This document shows, piece by piece, positions 6,388 to 64,000 of a stretch of 64,000 nucleotides of DNA. Each line of letters opens with the position of its first letter. The stretch's first letter is position 1. A program made the position numbers and the translations under genes. The DNA comes from a virus. The notes beneath the pieces are model-generated. The model searched no databases, was not told where the DNA came from, and worked only from the letters and a program-made list of their open reading frames with translations. The stretch covers positions 1 through 64,000 of the IMG/VR virus record IMGVR_UViG_3300022602_000039; one strand, written 5' to 3'.

Positions 6388-6852
6388 TTATGTGAATATA
6401 AGACGCTTAACCGATGCTTTGCAGTTAACCGCATACGGGCAATCCCTGCAAGCTCTATTATTATTGAGATAGATATCAGGTCGAATGCATGTGCCATTTT
6501 CCGTGCATTTAGTTACTTGCTCCGGTGAATCCTTTAAAAAGACCTCACGAGAAACATATGGTTTGAGAGTTGGAATACTATAGATAACCTCTCCCTGTTC
6601 GTTAGTCTTCTTGTGAAGCTTAACCTTCCGAACCTTCTTCTCCTTGATAGGTTTTGCAGGCTTGGAAGCACTAATACACTTCCGACACTTAAACTCGTCG
6701 AGAAGACTCCAAAGAGTACCGAACTTTTTAATCCGATTCTCGAGATTACTTCCGAACATCGTAACGTCGGTTTCGCATTTATTGCACTGAATCTTCTTAT
6801 TGATAAGATGACCGGTCTTCAGGAAGTGTTCTTGTTGTTCTTTATTTTTCAT
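6388..6852 (-). CDS. zinc-ribbon-like early protein
   Basis: A 154-residue basic protein with three Cys pairs: CNKC (near residue 23), CRKC (near 57) and C-x6-C with CRDCPYAVNC near the C-terminus. It probably binds metal and perhaps nucleic acid (inference). Promoter 6 nt upstream of the ATG. Confidence 0.75.
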   Translation of the reverse strand: MKNKEQQEHFLKTGHLINKKIQCNKCETDVTMFGSNLENRIKKFGTLWSLLDEFKCRKCISASKPAKPIKEKKVRKVKLHKKTNEQGEVIYSIPTLKPYVSREVFLKDSPEQVTKCTENGTCIRPDIYLNNNRACRDCPYAVNCKASVKRLIFT

Positions 6853-6858
6853 ACTATT

Positions 6859-6887
6859 ATTATGGCTGGGTTAAAAGGAAATTACAA
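6859..6887 (-). promoter_or_regulatory. early-type promoter, leaderless spacing
   Basis: TTGTAA-N17-CATAAT-N6-ATG(6852). Confidence 0.72.
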
Positions 6888-41973: not shown

Positions 41974-42120
41974 TTATTTCCGCTTTTTACCAGCATCCGA
42001 GCGTTGAGCTCGATACTTCGTCTTACAGCTTGCTGGCTTTCCAGCGTTCAATTGACGACGGAGAAACGCTGCAGTTTCATACCGACGTGAACTTCCCTTA
42101 ATGACTTGAACCCACGGCAT
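41974..42120 (-). CDS. small basic protein starting inside a truncated tRNA
   Basis: A 48-residue ORF: MPWVQVIKGSSRRYETAAFL, then RRQLNAGKPASC and a basic tail. Function not recognised. Its first codons are the T-stem/T-loop of a broken tRNA-Asp, and its GC-rich codons look like real coding sequence. The true start may be further downstream. Confidence 0.5.
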   Translation of the reverse strand: MPWVQVIKGSSRRYETAAFLRRQLNAGKPASCKTKYRAQRSDAGKKRK

Positions 42121-42164
42121 CATGCGTGACAGGCATGCGCTCTAACCAGCTGAGCTACAACTCC
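42099..42164 (-). pseudogene. tRNA-Asp (GUC) lacking its 3' end
   Basis: Acceptor 5' strand (GGAGTTG), D-arm, anticodon arm CATGC-CTGTCAC-GCATG (GUC) and the 5' half of the T-arm up to TTCAAGTC are intact. The T-stem 3' strand, acceptor 3' strand and CCA are missing, replaced by the 48-aa ORF. Confidence 0.78.
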
Positions 42165-42631: not shown

Positions 42632-42705
42632 AGACTCGGGTGGGAGTCGAACCCACAAAATTCTGCTCCTAAGGCAGACGGATATGCCAATTCTCCTACC
42701 GAGGC
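42632..42705 (-). tRNA. tRNA with anticodon UAG (Leu), short variable loop
   Basis: Anticodon arm TCTGC-CTTAGGA-GCAGA gives UAG (reads CUN, leucine), but the variable loop is only 5 nt, whereas bacterial leucine tRNAs have a long arm. Acceptor pair 2-71 is a C-U mismatch and CCA is not encoded. Charging specificity is uncertain. Confidence 0.7.
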
Positions 42706-43178
42706 GTTATTTTTTTAATGTATGATTTCTTAGCTGCTGTCGGGCAACCGTCTTTATATTTATATCTGTTTTTTCTGTATGTATCAGTTTGACTGTGACA
42801 GTTAGGACATAAAAGACGTATATTTTCTCTTCTGTTATCCAACCTATCACCGTTAATATGATCTAATTCTATAGTAATTTCTTTTCCCTGCCAGCTTTTT
42901 ATACCGCATAAAGAGCATTTATTTTCTCTCTCTCTAAAAACCCATTTGCGCAACGTTGTGCTTGGAATAAATTTTTTTGTAGTAAACACATCTGCTTCTG
43001 TTTTATAAGATTTGGGCTTTACTCTACCTTTTCCAGCAGGATTAGGATCAAATAAATCATACTCTTCAGCTTTAGTTTTAAAGACACTATAACTGCACTT
43101 AAGATATCTTGCAGCTGCCTGCATTGATAGTGTTGCAGCTATGGCACCCTTTATTTGTTCGTATGAAAAGTTTCTCAT
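42696..43178 (-). CDS. HNH endonuclease (homing type)
   Basis: A 160-residue protein. The N-terminal part (QAAARYLKCSYSVFKTKAEE) is a putative DNA-binding helix-turn-helix. The C-terminal HNH (CSLCGIK, IELDHINGDRLDNRRENIRL, CPNCHSQTDTY) is complete. Late octamer 5 nt upstream. Its 3' end overlaps the 5' end of the adjacent tRNA by 10 nt. Confidence 0.88.
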   Translation of the reverse strand: MRNFSYEQIKGAIAATLSMQAAARYLKCSYSVFKTKAEEYDLFDPNPAGKGRVKPKSYKTEADVFTTKKFIPSTTLRKWVFRERENKCSLCGIKSWQGKEITIELDHINGDRLDNRRENIRLLCPNCHSQTDTYRKNRYKYKDGCPTAAKKSYIKKITPR

Positions 43179-43557: not shown

Positions 43558-43640
43558 ATGGTGAGGACGGTTGGGATCGAACCAACATACTCCAGTTACA
43601 CATTTAACGACCGCTTAGAAGGCGGGTGTGATACGTCCCC
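43558..43640 (-). tRNA. aberrant tRNA-Arg (UCU) without D-arm
   Basis: Acceptor GGGGACG/CGTCCTC, T-arm GTTGG-TTCGATC-CCAAC and CCA are intact. The anticodon arm CCGC-CTTCTAA-GCGG gives UCU. Only 8-9 nt separate the acceptor from the anticodon stem, so no D-arm fits, and ~24 nt with a small hairpin lie before the T-arm. Possibly a rearranged, non-functional gene. Confidence 0.65.
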
Positions 43641-43646
43641 GTAAGT

Positions 43647-44023: not shown

Positions 44024-44035
44024 ATATAAAAAATG

Positions 44036-44056
44036 GTACCTGTGGTCGGATTCGAA
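44036..44056 (-). repeat. orphan tRNA 3' half
   Basis: Minus-strand TTCGAAT-CCGAC-CACAGGT-A-CCA is the T-loop, T-stem 3' strand, acceptor 3' strand and CCA of a tRNA with no 5' half here. It lies 5' of the endonuclease at 44086. Confidence 0.65.
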
Positions 44057-44072
44057 AATAAAGATTCAAAAG

Positions 44073-44080
44073 CATAAATA
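44073..44080 (+). promoter_or_regulatory. late-type octamer CATAAATA
   Basis: 5 nt before the ATG at 44086. Confidence 0.72.
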
Positions 44081-44085
44081 TTATT

Positions 44086-44799
44086 ATGCCTTGTTTATTT
44101 CCTATTAATATAGCTCAATCTGTTAAGAAGTGCGACGGAAAAATTATAAAATTTAAATGTGATGGTTGTGGAGAAATATACCTAAAAAGTAAAGTATATT
44201 GGTATCATAATGTCATTAACAAGAAACGCACGGTTTCTTTTTGTACTAAACAATGTGAAATGAAATATAGGTTTGTACGATGTGGTAGTATTAATGGTAA
44301 ATGTAAACAGTGTGAAAAGAATATAGTTGTGAGAAAACGTGATCAAAAGCTACGAAAAAATCACTTCTGCTCTAAAAGTTGCGCCGCTACATACAACAAT
44401 ACACATAAGCAATCAGGTACCCGCCGCTCAAGACTCGAAAAATGGATTGAGGAACAGCTTATTATTCTATATCCGAATATACAATTTAAGTTTAACAAAA
44501 AAGATGATATTGAATCAGAACTCGATATCTATATACCACATTTAAAGTTAGCGTTTGAGCTTAATGGTATATTTCATTACGAACCAATTTTTGGTAAGCA
44601 GTTACTTGAAAAAATGGAAAATAATGATCAACGAAAAATGCAAGCGTGTTTAGAACGAGGTATTGAACTTTGTATTATTAATACATCTCAGCAAACATAT
44701 TTTAAATCACGTACATCGCAAAAATATTTAGATATTATAACTAATATTATTAATAATAAAATGGTGGTCCTACCCGGGGTCGAACCGGGAAGCCTTTAG
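44086..44799 (+). CDS. homing endonuclease, zinc fingers plus EDxHD (Vsr-like) nuclease
   Basis: A 237-residue protein. Two to three Cys pairs in the first ~110 residues (CDGCGEIY, FCTKQC, CKQCEKN, FCSKSCAATYNN), then an EDxHD/PD-(D/E)xK core (ESELDIYIPHLKLAFELNG, FHYEPIFGKQLL). The last ~18 codons are antisense to the 3' end of tRNA-Leu. Probably homes into tRNA loci. Confidence 0.85.
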   Translation: MPCLFPINIAQSVKKCDGKIIKFKCDGCGEIYLKSKVYWYHNVINKKRTVSFCTKQCEMKYRFVRCGSINGKCKQCEKNIVVRKRDQKLRKNHFCSKSCAATYNNTHKQSGTRRSRLEKWIEEQLIILYPNIQFKFNKKDDIESELDIYIPHLKLAFELNGIFHYEPIFGKQLLEKMENNDQRKMQACLERGIELCIINTSQQTYFKSRTSQKYLDIITNIINNKMVVLPGVEPGSL

Positions 44800-45046
44800 G
44801 GCAGCGGATTTTACTTACCACTATAGCTTTCGCTACTCTTTCGATTTGTGGTCTGGACTATGCCTTTACCTTTGTATTGCTACTTTAGGTAGATGATTAT
44901 AGTCTCTACACCTTCTCATTTCTGAGCTTGGCTCGGCGTTGGGAGGTTAAACCGTTCACCGAATTTACATCTTACTAATATAGAATTTCTTCTATACCGA
45001 CCCCTTACTTGTAGTCCGCTGTGTTTGCCAATTTCACCATAGGACC
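44762..45046 (-). tRNA. tRNA-Leu (UAA) split by a group I intron
   Basis: Exon 1 is 45013-45046, exon 2 is 44762-44813. Joined they give acceptor GGTCCTA/TAGGACC, anticodon arm GCGGA-CTTAAAA-TCCGC (UAA), a long variable arm (GCCCTAAAGGCTT), T-arm CCCGG-TTCGACC-CCGGG and CCA. Intron at 44814-45012. Confidence 0.88.
44814..45012 (-). other. group I intron in tRNA-Leu
   Basis: A 199-nt intron without ORF. P1: exon GACU pairs with intron GGUC leaving the conserved U-G at the 5' splice site. P7: GACTAT with ATAGTC. P9 hairpin TAGC-GAAA-GCTA closed by ACCAC/GTGGT, and terminal G before the 3' exon. AACGCCGAGCCAAGCTC fits the P6/J6/7-P3 region. It lies between U33 and U34 of the anticodon loop. Confidence 0.82.
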
Positions 45047-45096
45047 ATATTTTATTAAAGTTTTATTTTTTAAAAATTATTCATACCTCCTCTTTA

Positions 45097-45420
45097 TTAA
45101 TACCATTTTAAGTGCACTGGCTTATTATGGCAATCAAGAAATTCACCCTGTTTAAACTCTATACACTTATAGGTACCCATCTCTTCTAGGAAGAGTTTAT
45201 CCCCAGATGTCATAGGGTTAACATACCGCATTCCATCTTTAGTAATGGGAGCATTATTACAAATATATCCAAGTTCACAAGCTGCTTTAAGAAGAGACTT
45301 ATCCTTACCGGTTCGTGATACTTTCTTCTGAGCGCGTTCAACAATACGATGGGATTTACGAAAGGATTTTTCAAGCTCTTTAGCCTTTACGTCAATGTCT
45401 TTAAGGATATATTGTTTCAT
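45097..45420 (-). CDS. hypothetical basic protein, 107 aa
   Basis: Function not recognised; basic helical first half (SFRKSHRIVERAQKKVSRTG). Located between two tRNAs. Confidence 0.7.
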   Translation of the reverse strand: MKQYILKDIDVKAKELEKSFRKSHRIVERAQKKVSRTGKDKSLLKAACELGYICNNAPITKDGMRYVNPMTSGDKLFLEEMGTYKCIEFKQGEFLDCHNKPVHLKWY

Positions 45421-45426
45421 TTAAAA

Positions 45427-45503
45427 TGGTGGGCCGGGTCGGAATTGCACCGACAGTCTCTACCGTTATGAGCAGTGTGTTTTAACTATTAAACTACCAG
45501 CCC
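45427..45503 (-). tRNA. tRNA with CAU anticodon (Met or Ile2)
   Basis: Acceptor GGGCTGG/CCGGCCC, T-arm GTCGG/CCGAC, anticodon loop CTCATAA (CAU), CCA encoded. The anticodon stem has one mismatch at 27-43. Whether it is elongator Met or lysidine-modified Ile cannot be told. Confidence 0.85.
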
Positions 45504-45528
45504 CAGATTGATTTATAGTTCGAATGTG

Positions 45529-45536
45529 ATTAAATA
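45529..45536 (+). promoter_or_regulatory. late-type octamer ATTAAATA
   Basis: 5 nt before the ATG at 45542. Confidence 0.62.
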
Positions 45537-45541
45537 ATAAT

Positions 45542-46033
45542 ATGAATTGTTTAAAATGCAATAAAGAACTTACAAGTAGATGGTCTAAGCGCTTTTGTAA
45601 TAAAAGTTGCGCGGCTAGCTATAATGGTAGAGTACATCCTAAGCGTAGTAAAGAGAGATTGAAATGGCCTAAGTGTAGAGAGTGTAGTAATACTGTTGTT
45701 GCAAAATATTACAAATATTGTAGGGAGTGTATTGAAAAGCGAAAACATTATCACGGTACACCTGCTGACGAGCAAACAATCGCACTTGCTTCCAGAAGAG
45801 GCGGTGCTAATCGATATGATATAATCAGAGCTCATGCACGTAGGATTTATAAAAAAGAATTAGAAGGTAGTTGTGAGAAGTGTAATTATAATAAACATGT
45901 TGAGCTTTGCCACATTAAGCCTATTTCCTCATTTGATAAAAATATAACAATAGCAGAAGTTAATAAGAGAGAAAATATTTTATTCTTATGTCCAAATTGT
46001 CATTGGGAATTTGATCATATATTACCGGAATAG
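45542..46033 (+). CDS. HNH homing endonuclease with N-terminal zinc finger
   Basis: A 163-residue protein. CLKCNKELTSRWSKRFCNKS, then CAASYN form the N-terminal finger; CRECSNTV a second; the HNH core is CEKCNYNKHVELCHIKPISS and LCPNCHWEFDH. The first ~25 residues resemble the neighbouring EDxHD enzymes. A T-loop-like TTCGAA lies 5' of its promoter. Confidence 0.87.
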   Translation: MNCLKCNKELTSRWSKRFCNKSCAASYNGRVHPKRSKERLKWPKCRECSNTVVAKYYKYCRECIEKRKHYHGTPADEQTIALASRRGGANRYDIIRAHARRIYKKELEGSCEKCNYNKHVELCHIKPISSFDKNITIAEVNKRENILFLCPNCHWEFDHILPE

Positions 46034-46147
46034 ATAATACAACTCAAGCAAAAAAAGAAGTACACCCAATCCTATTGTACTCCATACAGTAACAGGGTGT
46101 TCCCAGATGTTCTGAATAAAGATACGAATAGGATTGAGCTTAATCAT
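46022..46147 (-). CDS. membrane protein, 41 aa
   Basis: MIKLNPIRIFIQNIWEHP then a helix (TVWSTIGLGVLLFLLELYYLF). Start overlaps the upstream stop (TAATG). Confidence 0.6.
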   Translation of the reverse strand: MIKLNPIRIFIQNIWEHPVTVWSTIGLGVLLFLLELYYLFR

Positions 46148-46308
46148 TACTCCTTATCCTCGTCGAGGATTTCCTTAATCTCCTCGTTAAGACGCTTAAT
46201 CTCATCACCGAAAGCTTTAGCTGAAGCCTTCTTACGATGTTTTGTATCTTCGAGTTCTTGGACGAGTTGATAGACTCGCTGTTCTTTACTTGGTTTTGGT
46301 TCTGTCAT
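46147..46308 (-). CDS. helical protein, 53 aa
   Basis: KPSKEQRVYQLVQELEDTKH, then FGDEIKRLNEEIKEILDEDK; coiled-coil-like, function not recognised. Confidence 0.62.
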   Translation of the reverse strand: MTEPKPSKEQRVYQLVQELEDTKHRKKASAKAFGDEIKRLNEEIKEILDEDKE

Positions 46309-46313
46309 AAAGT

Positions 46314-46580
46314 CTAGCCCCCAGCAATCGCCGGTACAATAGAGATGATATCATTCTCTTGAATATCGTTTGTAGATAGAAATCTCATATCTTCATCGTT
46401 TACAAATATATTAATAAATCTACGAATCTCACCATTCTCATCATAGAGTCTTTCCTTGATATCGGGGTAGGAAAGACAGAGAAGCTGTAAACACTCATCT
46501 AGTGTCTTACCAAACGTTTTGATCTCTTCGCTTCCTCCAACGAGTTTTCTTAACGGTACTGGAATTCTAATTGTTGCCAT
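46314..46580 (-). CDS. MoaD/ThiS-like sulfur-carrier (ubiquitin-fold) protein
   Basis: An 88-residue protein. Beta-grasp pattern ending IQENDIISIVPAIAGG; the C-terminal Gly-Gly is the activation site in MoaD, ThiS and related carriers. No E1-like adenylating enzyme is in the window. It may use host MoeB/ThiF or act in tail assembly or tRNA thiolation (inference). Confidence 0.85.
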   Translation of the reverse strand: MATIRIPVPLRKLVGGSEEIKTFGKTLDECLQLLCLSYPDIKERLYDENGEIRRFINIFVNDEDMRFLSTNDIQENDIISIVPAIAGG

Positions 46581-46585
46581 AAATT

Positions 46586-46593
46586 TATTTAAA
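46586..46593 (-). promoter_or_regulatory. late-type octamer TTTAAATA
   Basis: 5 nt before the ATG at 46580. Confidence 0.55.
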
Positions 46594-46639
46594 GTTGGAA
46601 GTGGGTGCGGGAATCGAACTTGTATCTATCCGGCTGTTC
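46594..46639 (-). repeat. orphan tRNA 3' half plus junction repeat
   Basis: Minus-strand TTCGATT-CCCGC-ACCCACT-T-CCA is a tRNA 3' end without its partner strands. TATCTATCCG at 46623-46632 recurs at 47338-47347 inside the tRNA on the other side of the endonuclease. Confidence 0.62.
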
Positions 46640-46647
46640 AATAAATA
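46640..46647 (+). promoter_or_regulatory. late-type octamer AATAAATA
   Basis: 5 nt before the ATG at 46653, which fixes the start. Confidence 0.7.
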
Positions 46648-46652
46648 ATAAT

Positions 46653-47357
46653 ATGAAATGCACAAATTGCAACAATGAACTTATACACCGTGATCAAAAA
46701 AAATTTTGTTGTCGGTCATGCGCGGCTTCTTATAACAATAAGATCAAGGGACCTAGGTCAATCACTACAAGGGAAAAAACGAGTAAGACATTAAAAGATC
46801 GTGCCGATAAATTAGGTAGAAAACACCCTAAGAATGGATCAATGTTTGTAAGAGTATGTCGTATATGTAAAACAGAATTTTTGCATGTGAAATATAGCAA
46901 GAATTTATGCAGCTATAAATGTCAGGTTGAACTGAAAAGATTTTTTAATAAGCAGGTTCAAGCTCAAGGTAGAGGTATATGGGCAAAACGTAGTCGAAGC
47001 AAGGGCGAAAAATTACTCGCTGAAAAATTAGCTAAAATTGGAGCTAACGTTATAACAAACAAGCACATGTTTAGTGGCTACGATGCAGATATAATTTTAC
47101 CGGATTATAAGTTAGCCATACATTGGAACGGTGCTTGGCACTGGAAGCCCTTAAGAGGTGAGCAGTTACTCAAAAAGATAAAAGCACGGGATGAAGAACG
47201 ATATAAAGCTGTTGAACAGGCAGGGTATATAAACCTTATAATTATAGACCATAAATTCACCACAGCGGAGCAAGCTGCCGATATACACTTTCGAAAGCTG
47301 GTGCGCTTGCTCGGACTTGAACCGAGACCAGGGGATTATCTATCCGAACAGGTATAA
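46653..47357 (+). CDS. homing endonuclease, zinc finger plus EDxHD (Vsr-like) nuclease
   Basis: A 234-residue protein. CTNCNNELIHRDQKKFCCRS and CRICKTEF-x-LCSYKC fingers, then the nuclease core (SKGEKLLAEKLAKIG, YDADIILPDYKLAIHWNGAW, HWKPLRGEQLLKK). The C-terminal ~20 codons are antisense to the tRNA at 47299. Flanked by the 10-bp direct repeat TATCTATCCG. Confidence 0.85.
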   Translation: MKCTNCNNELIHRDQKKFCCRSCAASYNNKIKGPRSITTREKTSKTLKDRADKLGRKHPKNGSMFVRVCRICKTEFLHVKYSKNLCSYKCQVELKRFFNKQVQAQGRGIWAKRSRSKGEKLLAEKLAKIGANVITNKHMFSGYDADIILPDYKLAIHWNGAWHWKPLRGEQLLKKIKARDEERYKAVEQAGYINLIIIDHKFTTAEQAADIHFRKLVRLLGLEPRPGDYLSEQV

Positions 47358-47388
47358 GCTGTCCTGCTCTACATTAAGCTACAAGCGC
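47299..47388 (-). tRNA. tRNA-Ile-like (UAU) with expanded variable region
   Basis: Acceptor GCGCTTG/CAAGCGC, T-arm CTCGG-TTCAAGT-CCGAG, anticodon arm GACAG-CTTATAC-CTGTT (UAU), CCA encoded. About 20 nt lie between anticodon and T stems, including CGGATAGATA, the junction repeat of the adjacent endonuclease insertion. UAU would read AUA. Confidence 0.72.
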
Positions 47389-59457: not shown

Positions 59458-59465
59458 TATTTATG
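59458..59465 (-). promoter_or_regulatory. late-type octamer CATAAATA
   Basis: 5 nt before the ATG at 59452. Confidence 0.74.
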
Positions 59466-59502
59466 GGGTAGCGATAAGTAGGAGTCGAGAATAAGTAATG
59501 AT

Positions 59503-60357
59503 ATGATCAAAGAAATTAGTAAATTAAAAAATGCTGATATATTATCTGTTGCATGTAGTTTTTGCAATAAAGAATTTAAACGCAAGGTACGGGATATACG
59601 AGCATCGATACGGCGTCGTGGCAGTGATGCCAACAAAATGTATTGTAGTGCTATATGTTCAAATAAAGTAAAAAATAGATCTATAACTACAGAATGCAAA
59701 CAGTGTGGTGAGAGTGTATCGCTGTGGTTGTGTCAAATAAATTCTAAGTATAGAAAATCACAAAATGCATTTTGTAGTACAAAATGTGCAGCAACATATA
59801 ATAATAAGCAGCGATATGTAAATTATATCCCGAAAGTTAAAGACAAAAAAATTAAACACAAGACATGTTATCAGCGTATATGCATACATTGTAACATAGA
59901 ATATACAACACAAAATAAAATATCATCATATTGTTCTGGTCGTTGTAGAAACTTAAATTTAAAGTTGCACAGTTTTGCACATAAGAGTAGCGGTAAATCT
60001 CGTTCAAAGATCGAAGAATATCTCGAACAAAAACTAACAACAGACTATCCAAATTTAGAAATAAAATTTAATGATAAAGATACTATATATTATGAATTAG
60101 ATATACATATTCCAAAGTATAATTTAGCGTTTGAATTAAATGGTGTATTCCATTATCTACCTATCTATGGAGAGGAGACGCTTAAGAAAACGCAGTATAA
60201 GGATCAACAAAAACTACTACGATGTAAAGAAAAAAATATAGATCTACATGTTATAAACCTCGGCAACACATGTTTTTCAAAAGAAAGAGGGGATATAATT
60301 TATAATACTATTATTGATATTATAAAATCACGCTCGGGACAGAGTCGAACTGTCTAA
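59503..60357 (+). CDS. homing endonuclease, zinc fingers plus EDxHD (Vsr-like) nuclease
   Basis: A 284-residue homologue of 44086-44799. Fingers CSFCNKEF, CKQCGESV, FCSTKCAATYNN and CIHCNIEY-x-YCSGRC; nuclease core (SRSKIEEYLEQKLTTDYPNL, YELDIHIPKYNLAFELNG, FHYLPIYGEETLKK). The final codons are antisense to tRNA-Cys. A T-loop-like GTCGA precedes it. Confidence 0.86.
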   Translation: MIKEISKLKNADILSVACSFCNKEFKRKVRDIRASIRRRGSDANKMYCSAICSNKVKNRSITTECKQCGESVSLWLCQINSKYRKSQNAFCSTKCAATYNNKQRYVNYIPKVKDKKIKHKTCYQRICIHCNIEYTTQNKISSYCSGRCRNLNLKLHSFAHKSSGKSRSKIEEYLEQKLTTDYPNLEIKFNDKDTIYYELDIHIPKYNLAFELNGVFHYLPIYGEETLKKTQYKDQQKLLRCKEKNIDLHVINLGNTCFSKERGDIIYNTIIDIIKSRSGQSRTV

Positions 60358-60401
60358 AAGTTCTTTTGCAGAGAACCGCCTAGCCGTTTAGCTTCCGAGC
60401 G
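60330..60401 (-). tRNA. tRNA-Cys (GCA)
   Basis: Acceptor CGCTCGG/CCGAGCG, anticodon arm GTTCT-CTGCAAA-AGAAC (GCA), U73 as usual for Cys; CCA not encoded. Confidence 0.9.
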
Positions 60402-61256: not shown

Positions 61257-61826
61257 GTGAAAAATCAAGAAAATAATAAAAAATATTATATTTACGGTTA
61301 TATTGATCCTGAAAATAACAATGAATTGTTTTATATAGGTAAAGGCTGCAGGTACCGTTATAGAAATATTAGCACGCGAATGTGTAATAGATTATTATAT
61401 AAGAAGCTTGTAACGTTACTAGAAACATACAATATTGATAGTATTACAAAAAAGATTGCAGTAAATTTATCTGAAGATGAAGCGTACGCTCTTGAAATAC
61501 AATTAATAGCAAAAATAGGAAGACGAAACATTGGATCTGGTACTTTACTCAATTTAACACCAGGTGGTGATGGTTTAGTTGGTGTTGCGAACTTAAACAG
61601 TTACTATAAGAGTAAGCCTTGTCGGTTGATTTGTAGTGATGGTCGTGAATGGCTATTTGAAAGTAAGCAGGATGCTATTAGAAAAGGATTTCCGGGGCAT
61701 ATTATAGAAAAAGCTATAAAAACCGGTTCACATACATTAGGCAATAGCACCTATAAAAGAATAAAAAACAGTAAAGCAACTATACAGTTTAAAAATGGTG
61801 ATACAATCACATACATGCGTTTATAG
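61257..61826 (+). CDS. GIY-YIG homing endonuclease
   Basis: A 189-residue protein. YYIYGYIDPENNNELFYIGK is the GIY-YIG strand pair; R in RYRYRNIS and E in ALEIQLI are the catalytic candidates; NLTPGGDG ends the domain. The C-terminal ~70 residues look like a DNA-binding repeat. GTG start. Inserted divergently from the broken hsp20. Confidence 0.88.
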   Translation: MKNQENNKKYYIYGYIDPENNNELFYIGKGCRYRYRNISTRMCNRLLYKKLVTLLETYNIDSITKKIAVNLSEDEAYALEIQLIAKIGRRNIGSGTLLNLTPGGDGLVGVANLNSYYKSKPCRLICSDGREWLFESKQDAIRKGFPGHIIEKAIKTGSHTLGNSTYKRIKNSKATIQFKNGDTITYMRL

Positions 61827-63891: not shown

Positions 63892-64000
63892 TGAGTTCGA
63901 ACTCTGCTTTCCATTTCTTTATCTCTCTGCATTTTAGGGAGAGCGACTCCTTTCCGGACTTGAGACCGGCAACTGGTAGCATTACTAAAGAAATTTGTGG
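63866..64000 (-). other. unassigned sequence at the window edge
   Basis: An open frame of 44 codons runs off the edge and stops inside the terminator hairpin. It also contains small hairpins (CCGG-TCTCAAGT-CCGG, CTCT/AGAG). It may be the 3' end of a gene or of a structured RNA; nothing decides this. Confidence 0.25.

Follow-up and report, generated by a model that had tools for sequence, protein, structure and literature searches.

Nuclease genes in the tRNA islands of the phage

Why do nuclease genes in phage tRNA islands start beside fragments of tRNA and end antisense within intact tRNA genes? The question is raised by a stretch of 64,000 nucleotides (nt), hereafter the window, which covers positions 1 to 64,000 of the 130,033-bp virus record IMGVR_UViG_3300022602_000039. 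The record represents a phage whose minus strand bears about twenty tRNA genes; several nuclease genes are encoded on its plus strand. The original prediction named four of these nucleases, starting at 44086, 45542, 46653 and 59503, and proposed that they insert into the T-loop of tRNA genes and supply a new tRNA 3' half. All four are real reading frames, and the proposal stands for the family of the 44086 and 59503 genes, here called E2. From the layout of the loci we infer homing and cleavage, and the E2 nucleases are very probably homing endonucleases of the free-standing kind, resident in the T-loop of tRNA genes and accompanied by a re-supplied 3' half. The E2 features of the window are as follows.

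44034-44056, minus strand: orphan tRNA 3' half, T54 to CCA (position weight matrix, PWM, 23.5 bits)
44086-44799, plus strand: EDxHD-like (Vsr/PD-(D/E)XK-type) nuclease with N-terminal zinc fingers, family E2 (family alignment)
44762-45046, minus strand: tRNA-Leu(UAA) with an intron of ~199 nt (ARAGORN, only with introns allowed)
59464-59488, minus strand: candidate decayed T-loop half before the 59503 nuclease (sequence reading, below threshold)
59503-60357, plus strand: EDxHD-like nuclease, family E2 (close relative in locus L100, also at tRNA-Cys)
60330-60401, minus strand: tRNA-Cys (ARAGORN), with a 27-nt overlap with the 3' end of the 59503 nuclease

The two E2 nucleases share 48% identity over 104 residues. 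The orphan before the 44086 gene is a genuine tRNA 3' half that begins exactly at T54. Its score exceeds the median of real tRNAs, the 5' strand of the T-stem is absent (1/5 T-stem pairs), and T54 is preceded by T, not by G53. An origin of this half as the original end of the tRNA-Leu next to it was rejected: the two form 3/7 acceptor pairs. The T-loop-like word GTCGA before the 59503 gene lies at the expected distance, with a score below the threshold, and is retained as a decayed candidate. As originally noted, three of the nuclease frames terminate antisense in the 3' part of an intact tRNA: the last codons of the 44086 gene are antisense to the 3' end of tRNA-Leu(UAA), and the 46653 and 59503 genes end in tRNA-Ile(UAU) and tRNA-Cys, respectively.

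The nuclease gene lies outside the intron of the window tRNA-Leu, and this intron matched no intron family in Rfam. Intron-bearing tRNAs adjoin such nucleases in several phages (window 44762-45046, L015:2567-2890, L085 and L104).

E2 nuclease genes and tRNA halves broken at T54

Relatives of the two E2 genes were taken from viral contigs and genome contigs, and the PWM for the tRNA 3' half is based on 361 tRNAs from the loci that were collected. tRNAs are present in 102 of the 110 distinct E2 loci. An antisense tRNA 3' end lies between -66 and +150 nt from the nuclease stop in 71/108 loci, and a displaced 3' half broken at T54 is found in 38/110. In a scan of 103 E2 loci (590 kb), in which halves were counted at ≥13 bits, 22 of the 36 T54-broken halves are antisense with the T-loop 2–65 nt before the E2 start, where 0.14 would be expected. 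In the halves before E2 genes the T-stem is gone, T usually precedes T54, and an AT-rich leader follows. These sequences show the nuclease gene antisense inside a tRNA gene that is broken at T54, with the displaced 3' half (T54-N73) on one side and a complete tRNA, carrying a second copy of the 3' half, on the other.

The relation between the orphan half and the tRNA behind the same nuclease was examined at the 28 loci with both features, using 5000 permutations of the loci. Between the orphan acceptor strand and the 5' acceptor strand of the downstream tRNA, 5.18 of 7 positions pair (permuted 3.60 ± 0.21), and a comparison with the 3' acceptor of that tRNA gives 4.96 identical positions of 8 (permuted 2.54 ± 0.26); neither value was reached in any of the permutations (0/5000). 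Local alignment of the flanks shows that a duplicate gene 3' end flanks the endonuclease gene, in the form of direct repeats bounded by T54 and N73. These repeats are identical at 20/20 positions in L086, L145 and L179, at 19/20 in L126 and L151, and at 18/18 in L142, and the tRNAs that bear them are of several isotypes. The same flank-versus-flank search gave nothing for the loci of the HNH nucleases or of E1, the family of the 46653 gene.

Neither a nuclease gene inside a self-splicing intron nor an integrase between the tRNA halves was encountered in these loci. No removal of the nuclease by splicing is needed to make the tRNA behind it complete, and the interval between the halves has room for the nuclease open reading frame (ORF) only.

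Occupied and empty tRNA genes

Homologous tRNA genes that carry no element were found for several occupied sites. Exact copies of the L179 tRNA-Met core were found in 80 viral contigs, and the nuclease is present only in L179's own. The trinucleotide before N73 in the other tRNA-Met contigs is mostly TTG (35) or TAG (26); the L179 orphan has TTG in this position, the commonest orphan flank overall, and TAG likewise occurs beside orphans. For L145, a search for an empty site returned only its own two contigs.

In cyanobacteria, the element adjoins tRNA-Leu(CAG) in L191, L192, L194, L195, L263 and L265, and the same tRNA has unrelated adjoining sequence in about 25 genomes. Occupancy can be reciprocal: L189 is occupied at tRNA-His and free at tRNA-Leu, and L191 shows the reverse. 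An E2 nuclease occurs in 11/293 genomes of the cyanobacterial order. The unusual T-loop base G60 is present in the intact halves of 5/6 cyanobacterial Leu sites and missing from the L192 orphan and from most empty cyanobacterial tRNA-Leu genes, a pattern that suggests an imported inner half. Both halves are identical in the recent phage cases. Among the loci examined, neither of the results that were said to refute the prediction was encountered, whether a related phage that lacks the nuclease and keeps the same orphan half or a cleavage site outside tRNA genes.

HDV-like ribozymes at the tRNA junction

At 11 E2 loci, an element of ~75 nt extends into the 3' end of the nuclease gene, with its first model base adjoining N73. 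The element is predicted to fold as a hepatitis delta virus (HDV) double pseudoknot with P1, P2, P3, P1.1 and P4. The predicted pairs are formed in 91.5% of cells against 74.5 ± 1.8 in shuffled alignments, and the covariation is 0.557 against 0.231 ± 0.028 (slid controls ≤0.144). P1.1 alternates between G-C and C-G, and 6/7 P2 pairs show double changes. The catalytic C that opens J4/2 is present in 10/11 sequences, and L137 has A. The L142 element matches RF02682 with an E value of 0.00099, below the gathering threshold. A covariance model gave 12 strong matches in 662 kb, including the window and its record, with 11 of them at E2 junctions. Another 236 kb of loci yielded no strong match, and no copy was found in the window's record.

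Theta ribozymes, which are HDV-like, are known at phage tRNA 3' ends (PMC10879173). The junction elements share their defining properties, namely the HDV-like double pseudoknot and a start immediately behind the 3' end of the tRNA. They differ from the described theta ribozymes in being mostly part of a homing-endonuclease element and, once, in lying behind a transfer-messenger RNA (tmRNA). Among the 14 ribozymes in 11 parent phage records, 12 adjoin an E2 gene. A nuclease immediately downstream is lacking at two copies, L137:3575 and L206:1501. L322:6016-6690 contains a tRNA-Met, an HDV-like ribozyme, an HNH_3 gene and a tRNA-Met remnant, a layout similar to that of the E2 loci, in which the nuclease is unrelated and encoded on the same strand as the tRNA. 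In L343, an HDV-like ribozyme (6453-6525, minus strand) lies exactly behind a tmRNA (6526-6880) and is followed by a 190-aa ORF that has a zinc-finger-like motif and no Pfam match. On balance, we favor the reading that these loci represent a composite mobile element of tRNA genes, made up of a homing endonuclease, an HDV-like ribozyme carried as cargo that rebuilds the 3' end, and a tRNA 3' half. On this reading, several unrelated nuclease families (EDxHD-like, HNH_3 in L322 and the zinc-finger ORF in L343) would use the ribozyme, and homing would explain to a large extent how theta ribozymes have spread among phages.

A conserved module of ~70 nt lies directly behind the cyanobacterial tRNA-Leu, beside the nuclease (L191:2872-2946, L192:2872-2947, L194, L195, L263 and L265). 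It contains a TTAGGT...ACCTAA hairpin and the sequence ...CTCAAATCGTAATAAGTCAACTC. A search of this module for an HDV-like fold found none.

The E2 nuclease protein

The AlphaFold2 model of the 44086 nuclease has a mean predicted local distance difference test (pLDDT) score of 87 and a predicted template modeling (pTM) score of 0.57. A Foldseek search of solved structures placed the homing endonuclease I-Bth0305I (3r3p) third, ahead of every other nuclease (prob 0.99, TMt 0.64, E 0.059). E13, E40, D42, E53 and H59 are invariant in a protein alignment and are candidates for the acidic/His motif of EDxHD enzymes, and PHROG homing endonuclease matches were obtained at 1.2e-7 and 1.3e-6. Pfam Vsr was matched by the E1 member only, at 0.027, below the cut-off. 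A PDB sequence search with the nuclease profile returned nothing useful and no match to I-Bth0305I, and no GIY-YIG domain was matched by the 44086 or 59503 protein in Pfam or PHROGs. Membership of the 44086 family in EDxHD is likely. The 44086 nuclease differs from I-Bth0305I in its extra N-terminal zinc fingers, in the absence of an intron and in its location at the tRNA T-loop. Megablast of the window against named phages gave no match, and tblastn of the window nucleases against phages and plasmids gave remote matches or none.

Proposed mechanism and alternative explanations

We propose that the E2 enzyme recognizes the conserved T-loop of a tRNA gene and cuts there. Repair against an occupied copy would install the nuclease gene together with a fresh tRNA 3' half, which would keep the tRNA functional. 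The new 3' end would be set by self-cleavage of the ribozyme or by an encoded CCA, and the displaced half would decay. In the window, the gene at 44086, and probably the one at 59503, would be an older copy of the element. The original prediction described a way of spreading tRNAs; the data are better described as spread through tRNA genes that stay intact.

Several points weigh against homing with a donor half. No T54 half is recognizable in 72/110 E2 loci, and decay is assumed for these. The window orphan at 44034 mismatches the tRNA-Leu behind its own nuclease (3/7), and because of this the window alone is insufficient as proof; an older insertion or a later rearrangement is assumed. The empty sites are tRNA genes homologous to the occupied ones and do not represent one locus compared between sister phages. 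With exact repeats the T-loop is intact again, and the occupied site would have to escape re-cutting. The isotype of the occupied tRNA changes frequently, which a strict model of a donor half entering the same tRNA does not explain. The isotype tree, weakly supported and built on few columns, gives 35 changes in 57 rows against 40.1 ± 1.4 with shuffled labels; it replaced a tree of the CAATYNN core only, which had lost 65/110 rows.

The strongest alternative is target-site duplication, which we regard as possible and clearly the less likely route. Here, the filling-in of a staggered break, or of two nicks at T54 and behind N73 that lie 20 nt apart, would duplicate the 3' half of whatever tRNA is entered, and the element would carry no tRNA sequence of its own. 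The repeats of all six loci (20 nt in five, 18 nt in the other) have fixed ends, T54 and N73, over several isotypes, which fits this explanation, as does the frequent isotype change on the tree. However, to our knowledge no homing endonuclease makes a 20-nt staggered cut, exact repeats would likewise result from identical alleles in donor and recipient, and the distribution of G60 among the cyanobacterial Leu sites looks like import of the half. Judged from the loci at hand, homing with a donor half and duplication at insertion both fit, and the recent cases fit them equally. The frequent isotype change favors some ability to enter new tRNAs, and the shared T-loop base at the cyanobacterial Leu sites favors imported halves.

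It is improbable that the TTCGAA word in the leader serves the nuclease as an operator or promoter and only resembles a T-loop. Words of this kind are found repeatedly in the leaders of E2 genes, in L075 as a perfect palindrome and in some loci with no acceptor half, all of which would suit an operator. Such a role would leave unexplained the match of the acceptor, N73 and trailer to the neighboring tRNA, and the 20-nt repeats. An operator role and a T-loop origin of TTCGAA could be compatible.

Least probable of all is the absence of homing, with phage tRNA islands as hot spots of gene gain and loss and the orphan halves as ordinary decay beside nucleases: the window does hold other decayed or odd tRNAs, and HNH-family genes do adjoin whole tRNAs, but decay leaves unexplained the fixed T54 breakpoint, the single orientation and the fixed distance to the start codon (22 against 0.14 expected), as well as the match of the orphan to the tRNA beyond the nuclease (0/5000). 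Ordinary decay is largely refuted for E2; for the nucleases at 45542 and 46653 it remains the default.

Other nucleases, tRNAs and RNA elements

Besides the E2 loci, the following features of the window bear on the original prediction.

42098-42160, minus strand: truncated tRNA-Asp (Rfam tRNA 31.7 bits, model positions 5-66)
45427-45503, minus strand: intact tRNA-Met (ARAGORN and Rfam)
45542-46033, plus strand: HNH nuclease (Pfam HNH_2, 1.3e-6)
46596-46618, minus strand: tRNA 3' remnant, T-loop to CCA, with the T-stem lost (PWM 20.4 bits)
46653-47357, plus strand: second EDxHD-like nuclease, family E1 (Vsr 0.027, below cut-off)
47299-47388, minus strand: tRNA-Ile(UAU), overlapping the 3' end of the 46653 nuclease (ARAGORN and Rfam)

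The T-loop proposal does not extend to the HNH nuclease. This protein has only an N-terminal zinc finger in common with the other window nucleases, and its gene starts 38 nt after the intact tRNA-Met. The TTCGA before it, originally read as T-loop-like, has no acceptor or CCA and gave no PWM match for a T-loop half. Sequences before the HNH-family genes of relatives (L020-L051) were rejected as T-loop halves: their T-stems are mostly intact (4–5 pairs, with G53 present), and they are whole or oddly shaped tRNAs.

For the 46653 gene, insertion at the T-loop is not shown. The nuclease is a more distant relative of the E2 pair, with a homologue just outside the window (L016:1062), and it shares 56% identity with a nuclease in L015 that likewise abuts tRNA-Ile(UAU). 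The remnant before it had been taken for a clean T-loop half. Because it is flanked on the tRNA strand by a D-arm-like sequence, CAGCCGGATAGA (read by eye and unscored), it may instead be an internally deleted tRNA. The truncated tRNA-Asp, said to end at the same point as the orphan halves, is indeed broken near the T-loop: the 5' part and the T-loop (GGGTTCAAGTC) are kept, and homology is lost after about C61, which is not exactly the same point.

Two further nuclease genes lie in tRNA islands of the window. An HNH gene (42696-43178, minus strand) overlaps the 5' end of tRNA-Leu(UAG) with its own end, and a probable GIY-YIG gene is located at 61257-61826 (plus strand). The decayed or odd tRNAs of the window are those at 42098, 43562 and 46596. 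The second of these is a tRNA-Arg(UCU) without a normal D-arm (43562-43643, minus strand), a form that recurs in L025:2869-2946, L026:2861-2939, L027:993-1069, L033, L039, L042, L043, L029 and L095, often directly before HNH-family nucleases. Here the anticodon arm is spanned by pairing between the long variable region and 3–4 nt from the short D region, followed by TAAYTGGA, a candidate substitute for G18G19. The covariation is 0.607, against 0.114 after shuffling (10 sequences).

The phage also encodes a tmRNA at G000:66256-66702 (minus strand; L016:2757-3203), identified by Rfam with 111 bits and missed by ARAGORN. Its tag, read by eye, seems to finish in ...ALLAA. A weak twister-P1 match is located at 63919-63988 of the window (minus strand; L016:420-489), with an E value of 0.00019 and 32.4 bits against a gathering threshold of 67.2.

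Comparison with known systems

SegB, a GIY-YIG free-standing homing endonuclease of phages T4 and T6, cuts inside tRNA genes at the motif RAWTSGAAC, and a role in the amplification of tRNA-Tyr has been shown (PMC13096335). In our own reading, this motif would correspond to the antisense of the tRNA T-loop. Like the E2 nucleases, SegB is located in a phage tRNA region and has tRNA genes as its target. It has an unrelated nuclease fold, and the accessible part of that report does not describe an insertion bounded by T54, a re-supplied 3' half or a ribozyme (PMC13096335).

In the mORF elements of Allomyces atp6 and Glomus atp6, atp9, cox2 and nad3, an endonuclease gene is inserted with a replacement 3' end, the native 3' end is displaced and left behind, and the hybrid gene is expressed (PMC3630166). 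The E2 element is similar in that the end of the target gene is re-supplied and the old end displaced. The mORF elements differ in their protein gene targets, LAGLIDADG or GIY-YIG nucleases, mitochondrial location and lack of a ribozyme, whereas E2 occupies tRNA genes of phages and cyanobacteria. Genomic islands of tyrosine integrases also regenerate the tRNA, with a displaced fragment marking the far end and the T-loop as one crossover sub-site (Islander; PMC4383910). Unlike these islands, the E2 units are about 0.7–0.9 kb, with a single nuclease gene and no integrase.

The words endonuclease and homing do not occur in the theta ribozyme paper (PMC10879173), and no paper on a theta ribozyme together with a homing endonuclease was found in a literature from which most subscription journals are missing. 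The parts of the element are known from SegB, theta ribozymes and fungal mitochondrial gene-end elements, and their combination appears to be undescribed.

The E2 element offers a testable reason for the co-occurrence of tRNA clusters and endonuclease genes in phages, namely a T-loop target common to nearly every tRNA. By re-supplying the piece that it displaces, the parasite would avoid harm, and parasite and tRNA supply would travel together. This would account for orphan tRNA halves and for nuclease genes that run antisense into tRNAs, and it offers an origin for many theta ribozymes. It may also provide a link to tRNA-attacking anti-phage systems, for which the duplication or relocation of tRNA genes by mobile units is relevant (compare SegB).

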